This document shows, in pieces, positions 8,637-58,058 of a stretch of DNA of 64,000 nucleotides; the first letter of the stretch is position 1, and each line of letters starts with the position of its first letter. The position numbers and the translations under genes are program-made. The stretch comes from Mesorhizobium sp. (lineage in GTDB: Bacteria; Pseudomonadota; Alphaproteobacteria; Rhizobiales; Rhizobiaceae), in the NCBI GenBank assembly GCA_004017275.1, contig SAKE01000005.1:186001-250000 (forward strand), in the 5' to 3' direction. Under the pieces are notes generated by a model, which was not told where the DNA came from, did no database searches, and saw nothing but the letters and a program-made list of their open reading frames with translations.

Positions 8637-8831
8637 ATGAACGATAAGACAATTCCACTGAAAAAGGATGATCCAGCGAAAAAGGGCGGCACCGACCGCA
8701 AGGATCGGCTGGCCGAGCAATTGCGTGCCAACCTGCAGAAGCGCAAGGCGCAGTCGCGCTCTCGGCGCACCGGCGATGCGGATCAGCGGCCGGACGGGCT
8801 CGCTGCATCGAAGGAAATGCAAAAAGATTAA
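8637..8831 (+). CDS. Small conserved hypothetical protein upstream of murA
   Basis: A 64-residue, very hydrophilic protein (MNDKTIPLKKDDPAKKGG..., then RKDRLAEQLRANLQKRKAQSRSRR, then GDADQRPDG). Many Lys, Arg and Asp, no membrane segment, no cysteine. I recall similar short proteins before murA in other Rhizobiales, which supports its being real; the function is unknown. I took the internal ATG at 8637 as start because the upstream part of the frame (MAGWLVAGWGE) is unlike the rest. It probably shares a transcript with murA 128 bases downstream. Confidence 0.65.
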   Translation: MNDKTIPLKKDDPAKKGGTDRKDRLAEQLRANLQKRKAQSRSRRTGDADQRPDGLAASKEMQKD

Positions 8832-8959
8832 CTCAAATCGGCCACTCTTGGGCCGGGGTGGGCGAAATCCTATTTCTTGAACCACGCCCGGCAATGGTCT
8901 AGACGGGCCGCTACTCAAACGATTGAACCGGCTTTTTTGGCCGAGAGGGACGTTCTTCC

Positions 8960-10252
8960 ATGGATCGCATCAGAATTGTCGGGGGCAACAAGCTCTCCGG
9001 AAGCATTCCGATCTCGGGTGCGAAAAACGCGGCGCTGCCCCTGATGATCGCCTCGCTTTTGACCGACGACACGCTGACGCTGGAAAACGTGCCGCACCTC
9101 GCCGATGTCGAGCAACTGATCCGCATTCTGGGCAATCACGGCGTCGACTATTCGGTCAATGGCCGCCGCGAGAAGCAGAATGAGGGCTATTCGCGCACCA
9201 TCAACTTCTCCGCCCGCAACATCGTCGACACGACGGCGCCTTACGAGCTGGTGTCGAAGATGCGCGCGTCGTTCTGGGTGATCGGCCCGCTACTCGCCCG
9301 CATGGGCGAAGCCAAAGTGTCGCTGCCGGGCGGTTGCGCCATCGGCACGCGCCCGGTCGATCTGTTCCTCGAAGGCCTGCAGGCGCTGGGTGCCGATATC
9401 GACGTCGACACCGGCTATGTCATCGCCAAGACCCGGAACGGCCGCCTTGTCGGCAACCGCTACGTCTTCCCGAAGGTTTCGGTCGGCGCCACCCATGTGC
9501 TGATGATGGCAGCGGCCCTGGCCAAGGGCGAGACGGTGCTTGAGAACGCCGCCTGCGAGCCCGAGATCGTCAACCTCGCCGAGTGCCTCAACGCCATGGG
9601 CGCCAAGATTTCCGGCGCCGGCACGCCAACCATCACCATCGATGGCGTCGAATCGCTGTCGGGTGCACGCGTGCGCGTCATCCCTGACCGCATCGAGACC
9701 GGCACCTATGCCATGGCCGTCGCCATGACCGGCGGCGACGTCGTGCTCGAGGGCGCGCGGCCGGAGCTGCTGCAGACCGCGCTCGACGTGATCGCCCAGA
9801 CCGGCGCCGAAATCACCCCGACAAATTCCGGCATTCGTGTGAAGCGCAACGGCGCCGCTATTTCGCCGGTGGACGTGACGACGGCCCCGTTTCCGGCCTT
9901 CCCGACCGATCTGCAAGCGCAGTTCATGGGCCTGATGACGATGGCCAAGGGCAAGTCGCGCATCACCGAGACGATCTTCGAAAACCGCTTCATGCATGTG
10001 CAGGAACTGGCCCGGCTCGGCGCCCACATCACGCTTTCGGGCCAGACGGCGATCGTCGACGGCGTGCCGAAGCTGAAGGGCGCGCCGGTCATGGCGACCG
10101 ATCTTCGCGCTTCCGTGTCGCTGGTCATCGCCGGCCTCGCAGCCGAAGGCGAGACCACGGTCAACCGCGTCTACCATCTCGACCGCGGCTTCGAACGGCT
10201 GGAAGAAAAGCTGTCCAACTGCGGCGCGGTGATCGAACGGATTTCGGCTTAG
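8960..10252 (+). CDS. murA: UDP-N-acetylglucosamine 1-carboxyvinyltransferase
   Basis: First committed step of peptidoglycan synthesis: transfers enolpyruvate from PEP to UDP-GlcNAc in the cytoplasm. At 430 residues it has the usual length of MurA. The N-terminal segment [20 protein letters not shown] is the family signature, and the catalytic loop [12 protein letters not shown] contains Cys126, the residue that forms the PEP adduct and is the fosfomycin target (so no Cys-to-Asp resistance variant). The conserved [12 protein letters not shown] and TDLQAQFM segments follow. It heads a compact run with the DUF2948 gene and hisD. Confidence 0.98.
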
Positions 10253-35807: not shown

Positions 35808-37859
35808 TCAGCGGCGGCGCAGCAGCCACATCAGCACCGGTCCGCCGATCAGCGTGGCGACGAGACCGGCCGGGATCTGGCGCGGGAAGATGGCGGTGCG
35901 GCCGATCCAGTCGGCGGCGACCATGATCAGCGCGCCGGCGAGCACCGCGCCAATGGCTTGCGGCAGGGCACGGGAAAGGCCAAGGCGACGGGCAAGATGC
36001 GGCGCCATCAAGCCGATGAAGGTCAGCGGACCGACGATCAGCGTCGAGGCGGCGGTGAGTGCCGCGACCACCAGCAGCACCAGAAGCCGCGTCCTCTTCA
36101 GGCTGATGCCAAGGCCCTGAACGGCGGCAGGGCCAAGCGGCAGGATGTCGAGCCAGCGCATGAAGAGCGGCGCCAACGCGAAGAGGCAGACGGCAATGCC
36201 GCCGGTCGTCAAGGCGGCGCCGACATCGACGCCATAGGTCGAACCGGTCAGCCAGTTGAGCAGCAGCATGGCGCGAGGGTCGCCGGTGGCGGTGAGCACC
36301 AGGATCAGCGCATCGAACAAAGCCGTCAGCGCAACACCGGCAAGCAGCAGCCGCTCCGGCGCATAGGCGGCGCGGCGGCCGATCGCCAGCGTCACCAGCA
36401 AAGCGGCGAAGGCGCCGATGGTTGCGGCCGCCGTCTGAACCGGGCGTCCGGCATCCGAGAGCGCAAACAGCGCCACCATCATGCCAAGGGCGGCACCGGC
36501 GCTGATGCCCAGCACTTCGGGGCTGGCCATCGGATTGCTGGTCAGCCGCTGCATCATCAGCCCGGCGAGCGCCAGCATGGCGCCGGCACTCAGCGCGGCA
36601 AGCACGCGGGGCCATCGCCACGACAGCAAAGGCTGCAGCTCATCGCCGAAAGCGAAAGTCCAGCCATGCGGCCCCGGACCATAGAGCAAGGCCAGCCCCA
36701 GCAGTAAAAGCAGAGCCAGGCCGATCGCCGCCAGCAGGAGGTGCGGCCGGCTTGCGCGTGGCAGGCGCTCGGCCGTCAAGGTCGGGGCTTCCGAGCCGAG
36801 CGCAAGGCGCGGCAGCAGCCAGAGCAGCAGCGGCGCACCGAGAAGTGCTGTGATCGCTCCAGTCGGCAGCAGGTCGCCTTGCGGTCCGGTCGCGATCTGC
36901 ACGCCCTGGTCGGCGGCCCACAGCAACGCCCCGCCGATGAGCGGCGCCATCACCAGTTGCTGGCCCAGCCGGCGGGCGCCGCCGATGCGTGCGAGGGTCG
37001 CGGCCGCCAAGCCGACGAAACCGATGACGCCGACAGCGGCAACGACGAAGGCAATCAGCGCGACTGCGGCGGCCAGTCCGGCGAAGCGATAGGCGCCGAG
37101 CGGCACGCCCAGGCTGCGCGCGCCCTCGTCGTCAAGGCCAAGCAGGGTCAATGGCCGCACCATGAGGAAGATCGCCAGCGCAGCAGTGCCGATGCGCGGC
37201 AACAGCCACAGCGTCGTCGACCAGTCCTGCTGGCCGAGCGAGCCAGCGCCCCAGATGAACAGGCTGGCCAGCCATTCATGCCGCAGCACGATGAGAGCGG
37301 CACCGATGGCGCCGGCGTAAAGGCTGACCACAAGCCCTGCCAGCACGATCGAAAGCGGCGACAGGCCCTTGTGCCAGGACAGAGCGAGGACGGCGGCAAG
37401 AGCCGCGAATGCGCCGGCCAGCGCCACCCATTCGCGGCCGAAGGCAAGCAGGGACGGTGACAGAAGCGTCGCCAGTGCCAACGCCAGATAGGCGCCGGCC
37501 GAGACGCCGACGGTTTCGGGCGAGGCCAACGGGTTGCGCAGAACCTGTTGCAGGACGGTTCCGGCAAGCCCGAGCGCCGCACCACACAAAAGGCTGACGG
37601 CAAGCCTGGGCAGGAAGGCATAATGGACGAGCACTTGCCGCATGTCAGCGATGTCGGGGGCGGCGAGCGATTGCAGCCAGAGCGCCGATGGCAGCTGCAC
37701 CGTGAGGTTTGAGACGGTTGCCGCTACCGCCGCCGCGAGCAGCGTCACGCAAAGCAGGATCGCACCTACCGGCTGGCTGCCAAGAAAACTCCATGGGGAG
37801 ACGCGGCCGGCCGACGCAGGCTTTCCCCCTTGGGCAATGGCCGCGATATCCTCAGCCAC
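35808..37859 (-). CDS. fhuB: Iron-siderophore ABC permease, double-length FecCD/FhuB type
   Basis: 683 residues made of two tandem FecCD permease units, the arrangement of FhuB, so one chain forms the whole channel. First unit: LPRLAVSLLCGAALGLAGTVLQQVLRNPLASPETVGVSAGA and VGFVGLAAATLARI. Second unit: WRWPRVLAALSAGAMLALAGLMMQRLTSNPMASPEVLGISAGAALG and IGLMAPHLARRLGLSR. Each has the family NPLASP/NPMASP motif. The GTG start at 37859 overlaps the end of the binding-protein gene by eight bases. No ATP-binding subunit gene (fhuC) is adjacent. Confidence 0.92.
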   Translation of the reverse strand: MAEDIAAIAQGGKPASAGRVSPWSFLGSQPVGAILLCVTLLAAAVAATVSNLTVQLPSALWLQSLAAPDIADMRQVLVHYAFLPRLAVSLLCGAALGLAGTVLQQVLRNPLASPETVGVSAGAYLALALATLLSPSLLAFGREWVALAGAFAALAAVLALSWHKGLSPLSIVLAGLVVSLYAGAIGAALIVLRHEWLASLFIWGAGSLGQQDWSTTLWLLPRIGTAALAIFLMVRPLTLLGLDDEGARSLGVPLGAYRFAGLAAAVALIAFVVAAVGVIGFVGLAAATLARIGGARRLGQQLVMAPLIGGALLWAADQGVQIATGPQGDLLPTGAITALLGAPLLLWLLPRLALGSEAPTLTAERLPRASRPHLLLAAIGLALLLLLGLALLYGPGPHGWTFAFGDELQPLLSWRWPRVLAALSAGAMLALAGLMMQRLTSNPMASPEVLGISAGAALGMMVALFALSDAGRPVQTAAATIGAFAALLVTLAIGRRAAYAPERLLLAGVALTALFDALILVLTATGDPRAMLLLNWLTGSTYGVDVGAALTTGGIAVCLFALAPLFMRWLDILPLGPAAVQGLGISLKRTRLLVLLVVAALTAASTLIVGPLTFIGLMAPHLARRLGLSRALPQAIGAVLAGALIMVAADWIGRTAIFPRQIPAGLVATLIGGPVLMWLLRRR

Positions 37860-54874: not shown

Positions 54875-56701
54875 TTACAAAATCCGCTTGCCGAAAGCCG
54901 ACATGACGAAATTGACCGCGTCGGTGCCGATCCGCGGTTCCAGATCCGCCGTCAGGCCCGACACATCCATCGACAGCAGTCCGCCGGAGAGCGCGATCGC
55001 CTCCATCGCCTGATGCGTCTCGCGCACGGTCAATCCTCCGGAGCCAGCCGCCCAGCCAGCGAATTCGGTCACTGTGGGCGAGTAGCTGACATGAAAGCCT
55101 TGCGTGCCGGAGGTGGCGATACGGATCGCCTCATGCATCAGGTCGCGCATGCCCATGGCGTCGATATCGGTCATGGTGAAAGCTGACACGCGTGAGTCCT
55201 TCAGCACCCTGGCTTCGGCCGGGTCGGCATGGCGCAAGCCGATAATGACGACATTTTCCGGCGACAGCTGCGGCTGCAGCGCGCCTGCCTTGTGATCGAG
55301 GCCAAGCGCTCGCGCCAGCACCGAGCCTTCCGGCAGGTCGATGCCGTCCTCATCCTCGGGCATCAGGGCAGCGATGGAATCGATCCAGATCAGGCCGAAG
55401 GAATGCGTCGCGCGCGCCGTTGCGGTCAGCGCCTTGTGGGCGATGCGACGGTCGGCGCCGGCAGTCAGCCGAAGCAGCCCCGATGGCGGCCGCTCGACAT
55501 CGGCCAACTCTACGACGTCGAAATTCATCGCTTCCAGCCGCGCGCCGGTGCATTCCCGAGCCAGGATACCGGCGGCTGCCGGTTCGGCAGAGATCGACAC
55601 CATCTTGCGGCCGGAAAAATCCTCGACGTCATGCATCGGGGCCTTCTCGACATATTCCGAGGTCATCGCCAGAAGCATGGCGCCATAGCTCATGCGGAAG
55701 GCGACGCGGTCGCCGACGGCCGGGCGCGGATCGGCATCGGCGACGTCCAGCAACAGATGGTCGCTGGAGGCGCCGAGCACCCGTATCCCCTTGGCGATCG
55801 GCGTCAGCCCCTCGACCAGCACGTCCTCACGGCCGATATTGGCTATGGCGCGCAGCCTGTCGCCCTCGTCGGGGAAGACCGGCTGGTTGCCGAAGGCGTC
55901 GTAGCCGGACTGGCCGATCGGCCGTGACGGCTTAAGCTTGACCTCGATAATGTCGCTGGTCAGCCGGCAGGCATCCGGTTCGAGTTCGGCCCATGGTACG
56001 TCGCGGAAGGTCTCGACGCCGCCCTGCAGGATCGCCTCGCCGACGCGCAGATTGTTGATACCGGCCGGCAGTCTGCCTTCGAGCAGCAGCGGCAGCGACG
56101 ACGAGGCGCCGCCGGAAATCACGTCGAGGCTTTTGCCGGAGAGGCGCTCGGTCTTGTAGGCGTGGGCGACGAGCTGGCCGAGGTTTTCCGGCGTCGGCAT
56201 GATGGCGCCGAAGCAGCCGAGATTGGTGCCGATGCCGGCGATCCGCACGCCCTTGAACTGCAGGATCTGCTCGACCGTTGGCACCAGATCGTTTGGCCAG
56301 ATGCCTTCGCGGAGGTCGCCGAGATCGATCATCAGCATGATGTCGTGGACGCGCCCCATGCGCTCGGCGATGCGCGAAATCTCGCGGATGGTGGCGAGTT
56401 CCGACTGCAGGCTGATGTCGACGGTGCGCACCACCTCCTCGACCCGCGCCATCGGCGGGCTGCGCAACAGCATGATCGGCGCGGTGATGCCGCTGTCGCG
56501 CAGCCGGCGAATGTTCTCGAAGCGCGATTCGGCGATGCCGGCGACACCGCCGCGCAGCATGGCGCGCGCCACCTGCGGCATGCCGCAGGTGCCCTTGGTG
56601 ACGCCGAACACCTTGATGCCCGACAGCGCGCAGCGTTCGACGATCGTGCGCGCGTTGCGCTCGATGCGGCCAAGGTCGATGGCGACTTGCGGTCCCGACA
56701 T
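54875..56701 (-). CDS. PLP-dependent amino-acid racemase fused to a degenerate arginase-like domain
   Basis: 608 residues. Residues 1-370 form an alanine-racemase-type barrel plus C-terminal domain of the ornithine-racemase/YhfX branch: VAIDLGRIERNARTI, PLP lysine Lys36 in FGVTKGTCG, GIAESRFENIRRLRD, MLMIDLGDLREGIWP, GGASSSLPLLLEG and NNLRVGEAIL. Residues about 380-608 align with the ureohydrolase (arginase) fold, e.g. LSPENVVIIGLRHADPAEARVL, GGLTVRETHQAMEAI and the end AFGKRIL. Its metal ligands are gone: GGDHS reads GADRR (415), DAHxD reads DSIAA (441-445) and the DxDxxDP loop reads YSPTVTE (after His537). The racemase half looks active and the arginase half cannot bind two Mn ions. The dadA-like gene is just upstream, so the pair may interconvert and oxidise a D/L amino acid, perhaps ornithine. 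Confidence 0.85.
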   Translation of the reverse strand: MSGPQVAIDLGRIERNARTIVERCALSGIKVFGVTKGTCGMPQVARAMLRGGVAGIAESRFENIRRLRDSGITAPIMLLRSPPMARVEEVVRTVDISLQSELATIREISRIAERMGRVHDIMLMIDLGDLREGIWPNDLVPTVEQILQFKGVRIAGIGTNLGCFGAIMPTPENLGQLVAHAYKTERLSGKSLDVISGGASSSLPLLLEGRLPAGINNLRVGEAILQGGVETFRDVPWAELEPDACRLTSDIIEVKLKPSRPIGQSGYDAFGNQPVFPDEGDRLRAIANIGREDVLVEGLTPIAKGIRVLGASSDHLLLDVADADPRPAVGDRVAFRMSYGAMLLAMTSEYVEKAPMHDVEDFSGRKMVSISAEPAAAGILARECTGARLEAMNFDVVELADVERPPSGLLRLTAGADRRIAHKALTATARATHSFGLIWIDSIAALMPEDEDGIDLPEGSVLARALGLDHKAGALQPQLSPENVVIIGLRHADPAEARVLKDSRVSAFTMTDIDAMGMRDLMHEAIRIATSGTQGFHVSYSPTVTEFAGWAAGSGGLTVRETHQAMEAIALSGGLLSMDVSGLTADLEPRIGTDAVNFVMSAFGKRIL

Positions 56702-56702
56702 C

Positions 56703-57953
56703 CTACCCCCCGTAGACCAGCCCTTGCGGATCGATCTCCGGCTTGCGGCCGGCGACGAGGTCGGCAAGGAATTTTCCCGAGCCGCAGGCCATGGTCCAGC
56801 CGACATGGCCGTGGCCGGTGTCGAGATAGAGGTTCTCATAGCGCGCCTGGCCGATGACCGGAACCGAGTTCGGCATCATCGGCCGCAGGCCCGCCCACAG
56901 CTCCGCCTTCTTCTCATCGAAGGCACCGGGGAACAGATCCTTGCCGGTCCGGAACATGGCGGCAAAGTCGCTGGGCCTGTGGCTGCGGTCGAAGCCTGTG
57001 AATTCGGCGGTCGAAGCAAGCCGCAGCCGGTTGCCAAGCCTGGAATAGGCGATCAACTGGTCCTCGTCGGCGCCGCCCATGGTCGGCCCCTTGCTCTCGT
57101 CCTCAAGCGGAATGGTCGCCGTGTAGCCCTTCACTGGATAGACCGGCAGGTCGATGCCGTAGCGGCGGCCGAGCAGGCCGCTTTCCGGCCCCATCGAGAT
57201 GACCACGGCGTCGCCGGCGACCGGTCCGGCCGAAGTCATCACCGCACGCACCCGGTCGCCTTCGACGTCGAGGCCCTCGACCGTCGTGTCATAGAGAAAC
57301 CTCACGCCGAGTTTTTCGGCTGAATGGGCCGCGAGCCTTTCCACGAATTGCCGCGAATCGCCGGTCTGGTCGATCGGCGAATAGACACCGCCGGCGATCT
57401 TTTCCTTCACGCCGGCAAGCCCGGGCTCCAGTTCGACCAGCCGGTCGCGGCCGACGATCTCGATCGGCAGCCCGTGCCTGGCCAGATAGCGATAATTGTC
57501 GGTGCCGGTGTCGAGGCTGTGCTGAGAGCGGAAGAAATAGAGGATGCCTTTCTTGCGCTCGTCGTAGCCGATGCCGGTGTCGGCGGAGATGGCGTTGATG
57601 CAATCGCGGGAATAGAGCGCCAGGCGCAGCTTGACCAGGCTGTTGGCGCGCAGGCGCTCTTTCGTGCACTGGCGCAGGAAGCGCAGGCTCCAGGCGAAGA
57701 AATAGGGATCGAAGCGCAGCCTGACCTTGATGCCGAGATCATGATTGTAGAGCGCGCGCAGAAAGGTCTTTAGCGCCGCCGGCGAAGCCCAGGCGGTGGC
57801 ATCGCCCGGCGAGACGAGACCAGCATTCGACTGGCTGGTGCCGCGTGCCGGCGCCGGATGACGCTCGATCACGGTGACCTCGTGGCCGTCGCTGGCCAGA
57901 TAATAGGCGGCCGCCGTACCGACGACACCGGCCCCGAGCACCGTTATCCTCAT
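56703..57953 (-). CDS. dadA: D-amino acid dehydrogenase, small subunit type
   Basis: Flavoenzyme that oxidises D-amino acids to 2-oxo acids and ammonia, passing electrons to the membrane. 416 residues: FAD-binding ITVLGAGVVGTAAAYYLASDGHEVTVIER, SNAGLVSPGDATAWASPAA (typical DadA), VYPVKGYTATIPL and the C-terminal LYLDTGHGHVGWTMACGSGK. ATG 57953 has GGGGG ahead. Its TAG lies one base before the ATG of the racemase fusion, so the two are one unit. Normally dadA pairs with the catabolic alanine racemase dadX; here the partner is the unusual fusion. Confidence 0.93.
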   Translation of the reverse strand: MRITVLGAGVVGTAAAYYLASDGHEVTVIERHPAPARGTSQSNAGLVSPGDATAWASPAALKTFLRALYNHDLGIKVRLRFDPYFFAWSLRFLRQCTKERLRANSLVKLRLALYSRDCINAISADTGIGYDERKKGILYFFRSQHSLDTGTDNYRYLARHGLPIEIVGRDRLVELEPGLAGVKEKIAGGVYSPIDQTGDSRQFVERLAAHSAEKLGVRFLYDTTVEGLDVEGDRVRAVMTSAGPVAGDAVVISMGPESGLLGRRYGIDLPVYPVKGYTATIPLEDESKGPTMGGADEDQLIAYSRLGNRLRLASTAEFTGFDRSHRPSDFAAMFRTGKDLFPGAFDEKKAELWAGLRPMMPNSVPVIGQARYENLYLDTGHGHVGWTMACGSGKFLADLVAGRKPEIDPQGLVYGG

Positions 57954-58058
57954 ACCATCCCCCAAAAGCTCGTCGCGGCGCAGCGCCTCCACGCCGTGCC
58001 GCGAATGCCTTCAATAGCGCTTCACTGCCCGCCTTGCGAGCCCTTGGGAGGACCCGGC

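Follow-up and report, generated by a model that had tools for sequence, protein, structure and literature searches.

A predicted basic amino acid racemase carrying a pseudo-arginase domain, encoded beside dadA in Mesorhizobium and its relatives

The gene studied here lies on the minus strand of the window, the 64,000-nucleotide stretch of a Mesorhizobium sp. contig that we analysed, and encodes a single protein of 608 residues, as the initial annotation had proposed for positions 54875-56701 (Table 1). The plus-strand frame over the same positions is interrupted by stops. It had also been noted that the gene directly follows dadA, and only one base indeed separates the dadA stop codon from the ATG of the fusion. 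The DadA protein passes the D-amino acid dehydrogenase model NF001933 (457 bits, cut-off 383), and a PDB sequence search with it returned 12 sequences at E ≤1e-10 (glycine oxidases and others), none of them named as a D-arginine dehydrogenase. Elsewhere in the window, a membrane protein of 683 residues (35808-37859, minus strand), which looks like a two-domain iron-siderophore permease, lies where the AT skew is strong, at 36-38 kb; no tandem repeats were found in this skewed region.

Table 1. Features of the fusion locus, in window positions.
Feature	Position	Strand	Evidence
Fusion gene, 608 aa: Orr-type PLP racemase + pseudo-arginase	54875..56701	minus	ORF, Pfam, NCBIfam
Racemase domain, residues 1-353, PLP lysine K36	55643..56701	minus	Pfam, NCBIfam, structure match, alignment
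Pseudo-arginase domain, residues 367-608, complete arginase fold without metal centre	54878..55603	minus	Pfam, PDB search, model, alignment
GADRR motif, residues 415-419; R418 replaces arginase H101	55445..55459	minus	alignment
DSIAA motif, residues 441-445; D441 (= D124) kept, H126 and D128 lost	55367..55381	minus	alignment
D514 to E561 stretch; D514, R560, E561 = human arginase D204, R255, E256	55019..55162	minus	alignment
dadA, FAD-dependent D-amino acid dehydrogenase, immediately upstream of the fusion	56703..57992	minus	Pfam, NCBIfam

The N-terminal part of the protein is an ornithine-racemase-like PLP domain, as first described. Pfam places Ala_racemase_N at residues 8-224 (E 8e-27), and the best NCBIfam model is that of the ornithine racemase Orr (NF040742; residues 4-353, E 3e-118), with a score of 394.9 bits that does not reach the curated cut-off of 480. 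The PLP lysine of the first motif, K36, was identified correctly at the outset and is invariant in an alignment of 14 fusions.

The C-terminal part was compared with arginases by sequence and by predicted structure. The Pfam family Arginase (PF00491) matched residues 408-589 with an E value of 1.6e-17 and 64.3 bits, above the gathering cut-off of 22, which was also passed by all ten other fused domains scanned, with scores from 26.5 (L012) to 194.1 bits (L161). The arginase model TIGR01229 scored 76.7 bits with the whole protein and 79.3 bits with the domain alone, and its equivalog cut-off of 227.6 was not reached. Arginases in the PDB were matched by sequence down to E 6e-19 with the whole chain and 5e-20 with the C-terminal part alone. 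The whole chain was modelled from an alignment of 11 fusions (pLDDT 78, pTM 0.59); the best 50 structural matches of this model were exclusively fold-III PLP enzymes, and we therefore modelled the C-terminal domain separately. The model of residues 354-608, based on a 33-row alignment, reached a pLDDT of 86.9 and a pTM of 0.88; its best Foldseek matches were arginases, and it superposed on the Thermus arginase 2ef5_A with a Z score of 29.4 over 238 residues (rmsd 2.6 Å). Residues 13-255 of the modelled domain align to whole arginases, with the N-terminal loops shortened. Six of the 33 alignment rows were true arginases, so this model is not independent of arginases; the whole-chain model built from fusions only has the same order of strands and helices in its C-terminal part. 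The Pfam match, the PDB sequence matches and the Z score led us to reject a chance resemblance. An alignment with the second half of arginase had been reported initially; the homology holds, and it is the entire fold that is present, so that residues 380-608, the segment first assigned to the ureohydrolases, do have a structural match in that family.

A search for the same fusion in other genomes found it in Mesorhizobium, Aminobacter, Shinella, Labrys and Aestuariivirga-like bacteria. Among 247 genomes sampled from the family, the window's own included, the full-length fusion in the window's form was present in 8 and a second form, about 40% identical, in 3 (L011-L013), and one further genome carried pieces of the fusion on two contigs. 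The sample of the order (397 genomes) held the full-length fusion in 9 genomes and an unfused relative at E ≤1e-60 in 10, that of the class (385 genomes) the window's own fusion only and 13 unfused relatives, and that of the phylum (398 genomes) four fusions, every one of them from the window's family, alongside 10 unfused relatives. Only three of the nine genomes listed for the window's genus in the order sample carry the fusion, so it is far from universal there. We also scanned named genomes with the C-terminal alignment. Among the best 80 of the 139 resulting loci, 51 were in Mesorhizobium-titled records, and Aminobacter, Pseudaminobacter, Shinella, Labrys, Aestuariivirga, Taklimakanibacter, one Rhizobium and several MAGs were also represented. 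Five of these best 80 loci were non-alphaproteobacterial, namely the fusions L161, L162 and L163 and the plain acidobacterial arginases L164 and L166, which are unfused. Two more deltaproteobacterial-type fusions (L187, L188) come from genomes in the phylum of L161's genome. Arginase matches in plasmids covered the C-terminal part alone and were not accepted as fusions.

The second form of the fusion (clade B; L038-L040 and L172) is more trimmed, and no DadA was found near the clade B loci inspected; at L039 an agmatinase gene lies directly upstream of the fusion (8759-9613; 370 bits, cut-off 302). Mesorhizobium camelthorni carries a second, partial pseudo-arginase C-terminus about 12 kb from its full fusion (L033 17041-17408, L165 10001-10368).

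The fusion occupies a single intact frame in 69 of 74 loci from the scan of named genomes (L087-L160); of the other five, L127, L131 and L155 end at a contig edge and L121 and L123 appear frameshifted. Since the frame is unbroken in these 69 loci, and the same fusion occurs in other genera and families, we ruled out a frameshift or assembly error joining two genes in the window, an artefact that had been considered from the start. L121 and L123 are broken copies of the fusion and L157 has a fragmentary DadA, through either mutation or sequencing error.

We then compared residues between 12 unfused arginases and 18 fused domains, placing positions by motif. Human arginase I numbering is used, in which Glu277 is the guanidinium-binding residue of arginase and SGNxHG its substrate loop. 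Five of the six metal ligands are lost in the window protein (H101 to Arg, H126 to Ile, D128 to Ala, D232 to Ser and D234 to a gap), and D124 alone is retained, as D441. The initial annotation had reported all three metal-binding motifs of arginase as replaced; the motifs GADRR, DSIAA and YSPTVTE are present as described, with the qualification that one ligand persists. The GGLTxRE signature it named was found as GGLTVRE. Retention of the six ligands is graded within this one fusion family, being six in L161, five in L188, four in L163 and L187 and two in L162 among the deltaproteobacterial fusions, two in L146, L149 and L148, and one in the window protein and nine other fusions. The E277 column holds Gly in 17 of the 18 fusions, the window protein among them, and Pro in the remaining one, and the S137, N139 and H141 columns are altered or gapped in all 18. 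We do not expect the pseudo-arginase to carry a dimanganese cluster any more, or to bind guanidinium in the manner of arginases.

Seventy columns are invariant in the 12 arginases, and nine of these are kept in all 18 fusions. The nine include the equivalents of D204, R255 and E256, which are D514, R560 and E561 in the window protein and are invariant in the 33-row alignment as well; we take R255 to be the partner of Glu256 and Asp204 in the oligomer contact of arginase. The chance of three given columns all falling within the nine is 0.0015, for a trio that was picked after seeing the data. Glu256 and Asp204 take part in the oligomer of human arginase I (reference cited in PMC11271267), and a metal-free pseudo-ureohydrolase, MetCb, is described as being retained as a binding partner in the metformin hydrolase MetCaCb (PMC11271267). 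Because these contact residues are kept in all 18 fusions, and with MetCb as a precedent, we favour an oligomerisation scaffold as the role of the domain, in which the arginase trimer contact would bring racemase units together. All 12 arginases likewise share these trimer-contact residues, however, and the D514, R560 and E561 equivalents may be kept for folding alone.

Two roles had been suggested initially for the dead domain, namely binding of arginine or ornithine as a sensor and setting of the quaternary structure. These are still the two likely roles, but binding of arginine in the old manner is doubtful, since Glu277 and the SGNxHG loop are gone from all 18 fused domains. An allosteric sensor, in which the domain would bind arginine, ornithine or another metabolite at the old site and tune the racemase, is the main rival to the scaffold and, to our minds, the less probable of the two. 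Three residues of the former active site (D441, D493 and E496) are retained in the window protein, and 11 of 13 alphaproteobacterial fusions have Arg or Lys where arginase has H101, so the former pocket may bind something else, and the selection acting on the domain would also suit a sensor. The loss of the Glu277, S137, N139 and H141 equivalents throughout the fusions argues in the other direction, as does the further trimming of the clade B domain, which suits a scaffold better than a pocket.

The gene neighbourhood of the fusion was examined in Shinella zoogloeoides, where the fusion is annotated only as 'alanine racemase'. As annotated, the genes there run in the order amino acid permease, universal stress protein, speB, 5-guanidino-2-oxopentanoate decarboxylase, aldehyde dehydrogenase, biotin carboxylase, C45 peptidase, D-amino acid dehydrogenase, fusion and RidA family protein. 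The names of the decarboxylase (NF005712; 737 bits, cut-off 500) and of the agmatinase-family gene (TIGR01230; 212 bits, cut-off 174) were upheld by NCBIfam, and no ornithine enzyme is annotated in this 20-kb stretch. The same gene set is present in Labrys (L150-L152). In the Aestuariivirga-like loci L146, L147 and L149 it is reduced to the genes of the decarboxylase, the aldehyde dehydrogenase, the biotin carboxylase and the C45 protein beside the dadA-fusion pair, and no match to speB or RidA was found. Seventy of the best 80 of 139 loci are alphaproteobacterial fusions with 1.4 kb or more of upstream sequence, and in 69 of them a DadA match lay within 500 nt upstream (fragmentary in L157), L141 being the exception. 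The decarboxylase was linked in 11 of these 70 and absent from the locus in 59, including nearly all those of Mesorhizobium and Aminobacter. The window and most other loci of these two genera have dadA only; L143 adds speB, and L144 adds speB and the decarboxylase. Eight neighbourhoods (8-18 kb) of unfused Orr-like genes from the same family gave no DadA or decarboxylase match. The window's genome encodes a 5-guanidino-2-oxopentanoate decarboxylase on a separate contig (771.6 bits, cut-off 500), near transporter genes that include a binding protein closest to lysine/arginine/ornithine types (227.5 bits, below the cut-off of 256). Ten ureohydrolase-family places were found in this genome, the fusion included.

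Several further features of these neighbourhoods were observed. One lineage (L141, L034) is without an adjoining dadA, and at L034 (6570-9469) galE is followed directly by the fusion, with dadA missing from its usual position. Two other proteins are encoded between the aldehyde dehydrogenase and dadA, namely an ATP-grasp enzyme of the biotin carboxylase type that stands alone (NF005096; 766.5 bits, cut-off 684) and an autoproteolytic acyltransferase/hydrolase of the C45 type (172.7 bits, cut-off 85); the pair is found at L170 (5214-7688) and in the matching place in L146-L152, L154, L156 and L158-L160. The gene adjoining the ketoarginine decarboxylase in the window's genome (L192 8785-9687, contig C64) has a weak likeness to dimethylargininase (90 bits, cut-off 340).

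Taken together, our preferred reading, held with about as much doubt as conviction, is that the protein is a PLP racemase of basic amino acids, arginine first, that is paired with DadA and retains its C-terminal pseudo-arginase, most likely as an oligomerisation scaffold. The sequences establish the domain make-up, the operons, the stepwise ligand loss, the purifying selection and the single grouping of the fused arginase domains; from these we infer the substrate, the order of reactions, the loss of hydrolase activity and the scaffold role. The racemase domain would convert L-arginine to D-arginine, which DadA would oxidise to 2-iminoarginine and 2-ketoarginine, a step whose imine stage may be speeded by RidA-type proteins; decarboxylation and oxidation of 2-ketoarginine would then yield guanidinobutyrate and, from it, GABA and urea. 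In Shinella and Labrys the genes for the later enzymes share the operon of the fusion, whereas in the window's genome, where the decarboxylase was found, they lie elsewhere. Arginine would be diverted if the arginase domain of the chain were active, which is a possible reason for the loss of its activity. A D-/L-amino acid route involving dadA, perhaps for ornithine, had been suggested at the outset; the route with dadA stands, but arginine is the likelier substrate here, because relatives hold the dadA-fusion pair in a 2-ketoarginine operon and the window's own genome has the decarboxylase. For the 59 of 70 loci where a linked decarboxylase is absent, the arginine link rests on these relatives.

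A racemase of ornithine (or lysine) would instead form D-ornithine from L-ornithine, to be oxidised by DadA to 5-amino-2-oxopentanoate, which would cyclise to pyrroline-2-carboxylate; the dead arginase would be left over from an enzyme tied to the oxidation of ornithine. We consider this unlikely for the window protein, even with Orr as its best NCBIfam model and with OrtB, OraE and Or-4 genes beside the deltaproteobacterial fusions, since its score lies below the Orr cut-off and the Shinella operon combines a guanidino-keto-acid decarboxylase and an agmatinase-type ureohydrolase with no annotated ornithine enzyme. On the evidence of Shinella-type operons, ornithine was downgraded as the first-choice substrate in alphaproteobacteria.

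Ornithine does fit the deltaproteobacterial relatives, where the fusion stands beside oxidative ornithine genes. L161/L173 is preceded by OrtB (792 bits, cut-off 550), OraE (1282 bits, cut-off 800) and an Or-4 type protein (576 bits, cut-off 600). A protein with Or-4 as its best model, at 553 to 586 bits and so always below the cut-off of 600, precedes L162, L163, L187 and L188, and L163 additionally has the end of OraE. The unfused L189 is preceded by an OraE-type protein (718 bits, cut-off 800), the frame of which is truncated where the stretch ends.

Trees were built from chosen sequences, with 24 fusions and 36 unfused racemases (60 rows) for the racemase domain and 18 fusions and 22 unfused ureohydrolases (40 rows) for the arginase domain. 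The 18 fused arginase domains form one group (100/97). All 24 fusions and the unfused L189 group together in the racemase tree, where the window clade and the deltaproteobacterial fusions are joined at 97/94 and clade B at 80/54. With L189 inside the fusion group and the join of clade B weak, the racemase half may reflect a single origin, two origins or one loss. We suggest that a single event linked the arginase domain to a racemase of the Orr type, that deltaproteobacterial fusions kept all or some of the ligands, and that the metal centre was lost in alphaproteobacteria. The six ligands of L161 suggested a bifunctional arginase-racemase ancestor, a possibility that is weakened because Glu277 and the substrate loop are already missing from L161. 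Some members of the family may still be active, since L161 retains all six ligands, but a domain that is still catalytic in the window protein, with another metal or none, is very improbable given the loss there of five ligands and the guanidinium Glu.

Selection was assessed in 47 Mesorhizobium-group loci and the window (1128 pairs), after L121, L123, L127 and L131 had been dropped from the 51 loci tried. The median dN/dS was 0.096 for residues 367-608 (5-95%: 0.057-0.155) and 0.087 for residues 1-353 (5-95%: 0.047-0.129), indicating that the dead arginase domain is maintained by purifying selection and is not drifting. The stepwise loss of metal ligands, the second C-terminal fragment in Mesorhizobium camelthorni and the two apparently frameshifted loci among 74 would fit a decaying passenger domain or a functionless assembly join, which is made most unlikely by this dN/dS, the intact frame in 69 loci and the presence of the same fusion across families.

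More speculatively, and with distinctly less confidence, the protein could catalyse the first step of a hitherto unrecognised rhizobial route that leads through D-arginine to 5-guanidino-2-oxopentanoate, beside the CATCH-N transaminase route. The pseudo-arginase would build a small racemase oligomer up into a higher assembly, with a basic amino acid as its gate, and the members of the family would record loss of the substrate site first and of the metal site later, with the fold kept. Bacteroids fed labelled arginine are described as forming labelled 4-guanidinobutanoate, which was interpreted as a transaminase pathway (PMC7268258); the words 'racemase' and 'D-arginine' are absent from the main text of that paper. 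If the route exists, it would give rhizobia a racemase-dehydrogenase entry to the guanidino branch of arginine catabolism in addition to the transaminase pathway. The analysis offers a testable function for a gene with so general an annotation in Shinella and with so many Mesorhizobium-titled records among the best 80 of 139 loci, and the series from six ligands to one among these fusions documents, as few natural examples do, how an enzyme domain turns into a pseudoenzyme. No description of a racemase-arginase fusion was found in the literature searched, which comprised titles and the starts of abstracts, with most subscription journals outside it.

The system can be compared with four known ones. 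Like Orr of the oxidative ornithine pathway, the protein has a fold-III PLP racemase, and the deltaproteobacterial fusions lie beside OraE, OrtB or Or-4; unlike Orr, it scores below the family cut-off, carries an additional arginase fold of 250 residues, has dadA as its neighbour and has relatives whose operons contain a guanidino-keto-acid decarboxylase. It shares with the arginase/ureohydrolase superfamily (PF00491, TIGR01229) the whole fold, with a Z score of 29 to the Thermus enzyme, and the trimer-contact residues, but it is fused to a racemase, lacks five of six ligands, Glu277 and the SGNxHG loop, and falls far below the TIGR01229 cut-off. Pseudomonas DauA is described as an FAD enzyme that oxidises D-arginine to iminoarginine, with a Rid helper and 2-ketoarginine as the product; the imine step is hastened by Rid2 and Rid3 and not by RidA or Rid1 proteins (PMC5619798). 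The D-arginine oxidation, Rid helper and 2-ketoarginine are common to the route proposed here. In P. aeruginosa, however, DauB makes L-arginine from the product, whereas here D-arginine would come from the racemase and the keto acid would go on to decarboxylation; the window DadA, for which D-arginine is a putative substrate, also passes a different model (PRK00711) than DauA. The later steps would follow the known oxidase/dehydrogenase-type route, in which decarboxylation and oxidation turn the keto acid into guanidinobutyrate, which is then split into GABA and urea (PMC2242806). Finally, MetCb is likewise a pseudo-ureohydrolase whose metal centre has been lost and which is kept for protein contacts (PMC11271267), but MetCb partners an active ureohydrolase subunit, whereas the dead domain described here shares its chain with an unrelated PLP enzyme.
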